A stretch of DNA of 5,168 bases from a bacterium (GTDB lineage: Bacteria > UBA9089 > CG2-30-40-21 > SBAY01). The stretch is from assembly GCA_040757115.1 (NCBI GenBank), contig JBFLYA010000263.1:1-5168 (forward strand), read 5' to 3'. A program made the position numbers and the translations under genes. This document shows positions 3,705-5,168 of the stretch, piece after piece; position 1 is the first letter of the stretch, and each line of letters begins with the position of its first letter. The notes below the pieces were generated by a model. It was not told the DNA's origin. It was given only the letters and a program-made list of their open reading frames with translations, and ran no database searches.

Positions 3705-4355
3705 ATGATATTAATCATTGATAATTACGATTCCTTTACTTATAATCTTGTTCAATATTTAGGGGAAATAGGATTAAGTGGAGATAATATCGCGGACAAA
3801 TTAACGGTTTATCGAAATGATAAAATCACAATTGATATGATTTATAAATTATCTCCTGAGGCTATTTTAATCTCTCCAGGCCCCTGCACACCGTTACAAG
3901 CCGGGATATCTAATGAGATAATTAAAGAATTTGCCGGTAAGATACCTATGTTAGGTGTTTGTCTTGGACATCAGTGTATGGGATATGTCTTTGGTGGAGA
4001 AATCGTTCGAGCAGATAGACTTATGCATGGTAAAACATCCTTGATCTATCACAATGGCAAAAGGATATACGAGGGTATTGAAAACCCATTTGTCGCTACC
4101 CGTTACCACTCCTTAATAATCAAAAAGGATACTTTTCCAGATTGCTTAGAAATAACTGCCTGGACACAAGAAGAAGAGATAATGGGTATCCGACATAAAG
4201 AATATGATGTCGAAGGAATACAATTTCACCCCGAATCTATATTAACTAAAGTTGGAAAAGACATATTAAGGAAATGGGTAAAAATAGCAAGTAAAATTGC
4301 GGGTGTAGATACCATTCAAAATTCAGGCATAAAAAAAATTAAAAAAAATAGTTGA
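3705..4355 (+). CDS. trpG: Glutamine amidotransferase, anthranilate synthase / aminodeoxychorismate synthase component II (TrpG/PabA)
   Basis: A class I glutamine amidotransferase of 216 residues. The N-terminus ILIIDNYDSFTYNLVQYL is typical of TrpG/PabA. ISPGPCTP (56-63) forms the oxyanion strand, C86 in LGVCLGHQ is the nucleophile, MHGKTS (107-112) is the family loop, and H175 with E177 in GIQFHPES complete the triad. It releases ammonia from glutamine for a chorismate-using partner (TrpE or PabB), neither of which is visible, so TrpG, PabA or a shared dual-role subunit cannot be told apart. GGGAG at 3696-3700, four bases before the ATG, is the ribosome binding site. Residues after about 190 form an extension ending in a lysine-rich tail (KKIKKNS), encoded by two A8 tracts that also lie upstream of the next promoter. 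It is the last gene of the rimO operon, and its TGA lies inside the -35 box of the rpsL promoter. Confidence 0.92.
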   Translation: MILIIDNYDSFTYNLVQYLGEIGLSGDNIADKLTVYRNDKITIDMIYKLSPEAILISPGPCTPLQAGISNEIIKEFAGKIPMLGVCLGHQCMGYVFGGEIVRADRLMHGKTSLIYHNGKRIYEGIENPFVATRYHSLIIKKDTFPDCLEITAWTQEEEIMGIRHKEYDVEGIQFHPESILTKVGKDILRKWVKIASKIAGVDTIQNSGIKKIKKNS

Positions 4356-4380
4356 CAAAATTATGAAGTAATGGTATATT
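4331..4380 (+). promoter_or_regulatory. Strong sigma70-type promoter for rpsL, with upstream phased A-tracts
   Basis: A perfect -35 TTGACA (4352-4357) is separated by exactly 17 bases from a -10 TATATT (4375-4380, five of six matches to TATAAT). Two A8 tracts at 4331-4338 and 4341-4348, starting ten bases apart, lie directly upstream and look like a curved or UP-element-type activator of initiation. Transcription should begin near 4386-4389. The trpG stop codon TGA (4353-4355) is inside the -35 box, so the promoter overlaps the upstream coding end. This is the best promoter in the window and suits a ribosomal protein operon. Confidence 0.88.
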
Positions 4381-4497
4381 TATATATCATAATTTTTTTT
4401 GTAGAGTTTTAGTAATAATCTCTTAAAAAAGGAGGGAGAGAAGAGAAAAAGATATTTTAAATTTCCTCTAAGTTTTTAAGAGTCCTATTTTTTTACA

Positions 4498-4529
4498 AAA
4501 AAAGCAGGCTTACTAAGGCTTGCTTTTTT
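4498..4529 (+). terminator. Intrinsic terminator in the rpsL leader
   Basis: GCAGGCTT (4504-4511) pairs with AGGCTTGC (4516-4523) around an ACTA loop, with two G-T wobbles. The stem is lengthened by A4498-A4503 pairing with the T-run 4524-4529. A GC-containing stem preceded by A's and followed by six T's is the classic factor-independent form. It lies 37 bases upstream of the rpsL start. It could terminate read-through from the rimO-trpG operon, attenuate rpsL transcription, or both. Confidence 0.82.
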
Positions 4530-4556
4530 ATTCTCACTAAACTCTACCGAAAGGAT

Positions 4557-4566
4557 GGAGGATAAA
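4557..4566 (+). promoter_or_regulatory. rpsL ribosome binding site that fixes the GTG start
   Basis: GGAGGA at 4557-4562 lies five bases before GTG 4567 and is a near-ideal Shine-Dalgarno. An in-frame ATG at 4555-4557 overlaps it and has no ribosome binding site at a usable distance. TCCTC at 4464-4468 in the leader can pair with GAGGA at 4558-4562, a possible means of masking the site. Confidence 0.85.
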
Positions 4567-4947
4567 GTGCCAACGGTTAATCAATTAGTTAGATTTGAAA
4601 GGGAGAAAATGATAAGCAGGAAAAAAACTCCGGCTTTAGGAGGATGTCCGCAGGCTAAAGGGGTGTGCACACGCGTCTATACGACTACACCCAAAAAACC
4701 AAATTCTGCTTTAAGAAAAGTAGCCCGAGTCCGATTATCTAAAGGGGGCGAAGTAACATCTTATATCCCGGGTATTGGACATAATCTCCAGGAACATTCC
4801 ATTGTTTTAATCCGTGGGGGTAGGGTAAAAGATTTACCCGGCGTTCGATACCATATTATTCGAGGCACTTTAGATACTATAGGCGTTACGGATAGAAGAA
4901 AAGCAAGGTCTAAATATGGAACTAAAAGACCGAAAACAGGAAAGTAG
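4567..4947 (+). CDS. rpsL: 30S ribosomal protein S12
   Basis: A complete S12 of 126 residues (124 in E. coli). From the GTG start it reads [10 protein letters not shown], the family's N-terminus, and numbering matches E. coli through the centre. [20 protein letters not shown] (38-57) includes K43 of the decoding-site loop, where streptomycin-resistance changes occur; the wild-type lysine is present. [15 protein letters not shown] (82-96) contains K88 and D89, the latter being the aspartate that RimO methylthiolates. [13 protein letters not shown] (66-78) and KYGTKRPK near the end are also typical. S12 sits at the 30S decoding centre and monitors codon-anticodon pairing. The longer ATG start at 4555 would add MEDK, has no usable ribosome binding site and is rejected. 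The gene has its own promoter and structured leader. rpsG, its usual neighbour, does not appear in the next 221 bases. Confidence 0.98.
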
Positions 4948-4960
4948 CTAGTGCTCTGTC

Positions 4961-4982
4961 GCCATTCAAGTGATTGATTGGC
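4961..4982 (+). repeat. Hairpin with GUGA tetraloop just after rpsL
   Basis: GCCATTCAA (4961-4969) pairs with TTGATTGGC (4974-4982) with one T-T mismatch around the loop GTGA, which is of the stable GNRA class in RNA. It begins 14 bases after the rpsL stop. No T-run follows, so it is not a standard terminator. It could be a 3' stability or processing structure, or part of a dispersed repeat. Confidence 0.45.
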
Positions 4983-4988
4983 CGTTGT

Positions 4989-5031
4989 CCCCCGCTGGCA
5001 GGGGTCTAATCCTTACCCACAAATTGGGTAA
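4989..5031. repeat. Two small inverted repeats downstream of rpsL
   Basis: CCCC (4990-4993) and GGGG (5001-5004) flank GCTGGCA, a short REP-like hairpin. TTACCCA (5013-5019) is the exact reverse complement of TGGGTAA (5025-5031) across a CAAAT loop. Neither is followed by a T-run. I read them as intergenic repeat material, but the second could be an RNA structure in the rpsL transcript. Confidence 0.45.
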
Positions 5032-5100
5032 CAAGATGAGATAAGCAAGGATAAACTATAAACGGGAGATTAGAGATTGCAGGAGAGCGGAGTGAGTGGC

Positions 5101-5168
5101 AAAATTCCAAATCACAAATTCCAAAATACAAATAAATTCCAATGACCAAAATTCAAAATTCCAAACAA
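5101..5168. repeat. AT-rich degenerate repeat built on AATTCCAAA
   Basis: The last 68 bases repeat variants of AAATTCC(A), CAAAT and CAAAATTC at irregular spacing, continuing to the window edge. No open frame with a ribosome binding site is present. The irregular spacing and absence of unique spacers exclude a CRISPR array. Similar low-complexity tracts lie between genes in many uncultured bacterial genomes; that comparison is from memory. Confidence 0.55.

Follow-up and report, generated by a model that had tools for sequence, protein, structure and literature searches.

How does a bacterium set its production of ribosomal protein S12 when an intrinsic terminator stands between the rpsL promoter and the gene? 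The DNA analyzed here (the window, 5,168 nucleotides) raises this question. It is the entire contig C263 of a 4.3-Mb genome (G000), and its forward strand carries, in order, a homocysteine-biosynthesis gene (HcyBio), a rimO-like radical SAM gene, tsaE, a tsaB-like gene, a pabA-like glutamine amidotransferase gene, and rpsL. A perfect inverted repeat of 15 bp (ATGGGACGCAGATTT/AAATCTGCGTCCCAT, arms 122 nt apart) sits at 924-1075 between the HcyBio and rimO-like genes and resembles a small palindromic repeat element. The region around the rpsL start contains the following features:

4352-4380, + strand: sigma-70-type promoter, TTGACA-17-TATATT (consensus scan)
4387-4566, + strand: rpsL 5' leader, 180 nt (folding)
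4498-4529, + strand: intrinsic terminator (candidate attenuator), hairpin with T6 (conservation of the stem core at rpsL in the phylum)
4557-4561, + strand: rpsL Shine-Dalgarno sequence, GGAGG (sequence)
4567-4947, + strand: rpsL, ribosomal protein S12, GTG start (Pfam Ribosom_S12_S23, E 3e-39; homolog alignment)

GTG 4567, the start assumed in an earlier note on this DNA, is upheld as correct because homologs begin with MPTVNQL or MPTINQL and GGAGG precedes it. The strong promoter claimed ahead of the leader lies at 4352-4380, where it matches 11 of 12 consensus positions and has a TG before the second hexamer, placing the predicted transcription start near 4387. We also confirm the intrinsic terminator described 37 nt before the GTG codon. 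Its core has an energy of -12.9 kcal/mol, and the hairpin is the only terminator-like one in the window when both strands are scanned with one fixed criterion. The window thus has an intrinsic terminator between the promoter and the rpsL start, as expected of an rpsL-leader attenuator.

We consider it likely, at about two chances in three, that the 180-nt leader acts as a transcription attenuator, controlling rpsL by premature termination. RNA polymerase would start near 4387 and transcribe the leader, and the hairpin at 4498-4529 would form by default, releasing an RNA of roughly 143 nt. The fraction of polymerases reading through would yield S12, and that fraction would most likely be tuned by feedback from ribosome assembly. 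The signal acting at the hairpin region before the terminator could be a protein of the S12 or S7 type or some other translation signal. Partial, regulated termination is what we infer from this arrangement. A simpler explanation is a fixed partial terminator that senses nothing and either cuts rpsL transcription by a constant proportion or shields the gene from upstream transcription. Stepwise folding of the window yields the terminator core by default, with nothing upstream displacing it, and no switch is visible; such a terminator would also halt read-through from the pabA-like gene, for which the fixed-criterion scan finds no terminator other than 4498-4529. Comparison with related genomes bears on both explanations.

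The terminator belongs to rpsL

The comparison set comprises 19 genomes from eight families of the phylum. A layout of TTGACA promoter, 120-220-nt leader, terminator, and rpsL is present in 13 of them (G000-G008, G010, G012, G013, and G015), representing five families; the fixed-criterion scan missed the hairpin of G010, whose place among the 13 rests on other analyses. By the fixed criterion, a terminator precedes rpsL at 12/19 loci in the phylum versus 6/93 outside it, a contrast whose p value of ~1e-7 is too small because related species are counted as independent. Outside the phylum, terminators upstream of rpsL are no commoner than in shuffled sequences (six observed, 4.8 expected). In G009, G014, G016, and G017 there is no leader and the promoter ends near the start codon, as it also does in G018 when judged by eye; rpsL and the end of rpoC overlap in G011.

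The gene upstream of rpsL varies: it is pabA-like in G000, rpoC in G003, G010, G012, G013, and G015, and other genes in family f2. In G002, neither a tRNA nor a plausible gene running in the direction of rpsL occurs in the 500 nt upstream, ahead of a divergent argB-like gene. We therefore assign the terminator to rpsL itself, and G002 rules out its being the terminator of an upstream gene or tRNA. These data count against a fixed terminator as well, since 120-220-nt leaders are kept in five families and there is nothing co-directional to insulate from in G002.

Across families, the core of the terminator stem is kept as GCAGC/GCTGC or a near form (f2, f3, f5, and f7) or as GCAGG/CTTGC (f1). 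Among 32 terminator-like sites in 197 kb of loci, 14 have this core and all 14 are at rpsL, two of them being the opposite strand of the same hairpin. Genome-wide the core pattern is rare (0-6 sites per genome). It is also conceivable that a promoter between the terminator and the gene drives rpsL, the terminator then ending a separate small RNA or an upstream transcript; the sister families f4 and f8 do have promoters ending close to the start codon. A consensus scan of 4530-4566 nevertheless yields nothing promoter-like, in line with the earlier note, and the terminator tracks rpsL rather than the upstream gene, which makes this arrangement distinctly improbable.

Beyond the terminator, the leaders diverge. 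For a model built from f2 leaders only, the next matches include rpsL leaders from f3, f7, and f5; these are weak (E 0.05-0.15 for the best three) and due mostly to the terminator, and the model does not find the leader in the window. The presumptive sensor regions before the terminator do not align between families. The f2 leaders have a different, larger structure, with strong predictions in two of four (z of -5.8 and -4.8); consistent changes in their last stem are one-sided only, and an A-U pair replaced by G-C at the foot of its upstream stem was seen by eye, outside the counted changes. No double compensatory changes occur in the helices counted, for which each family offers few distinct leaders. 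The window's family, f1, has three. The leader of G001 is nearly identical to that of G000 and provides no covariation.

Structures within the leader

Four further features lie inside the leader:

4401-4413, + strand: closing helix, 5' arm (folding; not conserved in G002 or G003)
4420-4482, + strand: inner hairpin CTCTTAAAAA.../...TTTTTAAGAG, with GGAGGGAG pairing with the opposite arm (folding; arms conserved in the family's other genus)
4431-4438, + strand: Shine-Dalgarno-like element GGAGGGAG, with no usual start codon at normal distance downstream (exploratory)
4536-4547, + strand: closing helix, 3' arm (folding; not conserved in G002 or G003)

The whole leader folds better than shuffled sequences (z of -3.5). 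This is due mainly to the terminator and the closing helix, as structure in the part before the terminator is not above that of shuffles (z of +0.13). Rfam covariance models, including a permissive search, gave only chance-level matches to the leader and nothing at gathering score.

The closing helix has one bulge and, in the full leader, pairs along most of its length with a probability near 1. As the earlier note held, it forms only after read-through in stepwise folding. A contiguous 9-bp closing match arises in 5.8% of shuffles and the duplex energy has a p value of 0.10; with these values (p 0.06-0.10) and with the helix absent from both diverged relatives, G002 and G003, we reject it as a conserved switch or regulatory element. 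Of the two modes of control that had been put forward, premature termination is thus favored by a conserved rpsL terminator independent of the upstream gene, while closing-helix control is not borne out in these relatives.

The inner hairpin fares better. Its perfect 10-bp stem (4420-4429/4473-4482) is where it had been described, and although a perfect stem of at least 10 bp appears in 4.5% of shuffles, making it borderline alone, the hairpin is conserved within the family. Its arms, aligned alone because MAFFT misaligned the family hairpin, are kept between the genera of f1, and insertions in both arms preserve the pairing.

For the predicted rpsL-leader attenuators of Naville and Gautheret an alternative antiterminator could be drawn every time; in the window none is above chance (p 0.23). 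An A-tract helix (4393-4403/4494-4504) was considered for this role and rejected, being not above chance and leaving the terminator core free. Mutually exclusive antiterminators exceed chance in f3 (p 0.004 and 0.022) and G005 (p 0.002) only. The f3 rpsL leaders (L134 5436-5604 and L129 4800-4972) have a 13-bp antiterminator that is mutually exclusive with the terminator; in G013, a member of f3, it pairs GTTGCTTTTTTAAG with CTTAAAAAGCAGC, right beside AGGGGGTGAT. For testing the mechanism, these leaders are better suited than the window. Antiterminators above chance are not expected of a fixed terminator, and together with the retained leaders they lead us to regard that explanation as unlikely.

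A Shine-Dalgarno-like element lies 50-75 nt ahead of the terminator in most leaders, lacking a usual start codon at normal distance. In the window, pairing of GGAGGGAG with the 16S tail is worth -13.3 kcal/mol (p 0.03 against shuffles); the element has p <0.05 in f1, f3, f7, and G015, but not in f2 or G010, and in f3 it adjoins the antiterminator strand. Because it was noticed after looking, we treat it only as a lead. One proposal, which we judge very unlikely, is that the leader senses free 30S subunits through this element in the absence of an open reading frame, excess subunits binding it and tipping the RNA toward termination. The same elements could instead serve a leader peptide, with ribosomes on a short open reading frame setting terminator formation, and a short frame does cross the hairpin in G002 and, from an internal ATG identified by eye, in G003. 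The matching frame has no ATG, GTG, or TTG in G000 and G001, however, the candidate frames in f2 shift between species, and no run of regulatory codons is seen; we find such an attenuator very improbable.

The rpsL-rpsG junction and known rpsL control

In Escherichia coli, S7 controls the str operon at the rpsL-rpsG junction (PMC10931766). That control concerns the same operon but acts on translation rather than on termination before rpsL, and the feature in the window is upstream of rpsL rather than at the junction. The earlier note suggested that repeats had displaced the S7 region and that the leader acts in its place. Following rpsL, 4945-5168 is a high-copy interspersed repeat, one of nine near full-length copies among 42 matches in the genome. 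The rpsG gene of G000 lies on a separate contig, C316, which opens with a repeat of the type found at the end of the window, and CTAGTGCTCTGTCGC occurs in inverted orientation at the window end and the C316 end. From these contig ends, repeats would lie between the two genes, and rpsL and rpsG seem to have been separated by such an element.

Such repeats also lie beside rpsL and rpsG in the sister species, G001, where the contig ends (L122 7690-7902 and L150 960-1289) have similar AATTCCAAATTCC repeats together with pieces of a reading frame. These pieces presumably resemble four-helix-bundle (S23-like) proteins; a Pfam search with a 42-residue piece gave no match. In f4 and f8 (L130, L135, L137, L138, and L139), a gene that looks like rplT (L20) lies between rpsL and rpsG, an unusual order, and the promoter lies so near the start codon that transcripts may lack a leader.

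Substitution for a lost S7 site, by contrast, is rejected. The leader is also found in G002-G007, which have normal rpsL-rpsG junctions, and in G012 and G015, where only 3-17 nt separate the two genes; given its presence beside intact junctions, it does not stand in for S7 control.

Attenuators in rpsL leaders were predicted by Naville and Gautheret in 2010, who called them multiform and left the partner open (PMC2965389), and, as cited there, by Merino and Yanofsky. Naville and Gautheret give an antiterminator for several groups with derived structures, and it is not a stated criterion for detection (PMC2965389). The window leader fits this known kind: it has an intrinsic terminator in the rpsL 5' UTR, and no sequence or structure is common between groups. 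It differs in coming from an uncultured phylum outside their coverage and in having no antiterminator above chance. Other systems are less close. The rpsL motif of Candidatus Pelagibacter ubique (PMC2704228) is likewise a structured RNA upstream of rpsL but forms a three-stem junction, whereas the window leader matches no Rfam family. The L20 leader of Bacillus subtilis (RF00558) is likewise a ribosomal-protein leader acting through a terminator but serves another gene, and the window leader scores 19.7 against its cutoff of 58.7. One report describes premature termination or processing of rpsL in enteropathogenic E. coli that depends on conditions (PMC10687069).

The 13 leaders with a conserved terminator, together with f4 and f8 as a control group without one, form a set for in vitro testing of candidate ligands. 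To our knowledge, control of the str operon has hardly been studied beyond a few model bacteria. In this phylum, relatives have kept the terminator while its neighboring genes changed, and it is probably a throttle on S12 production.
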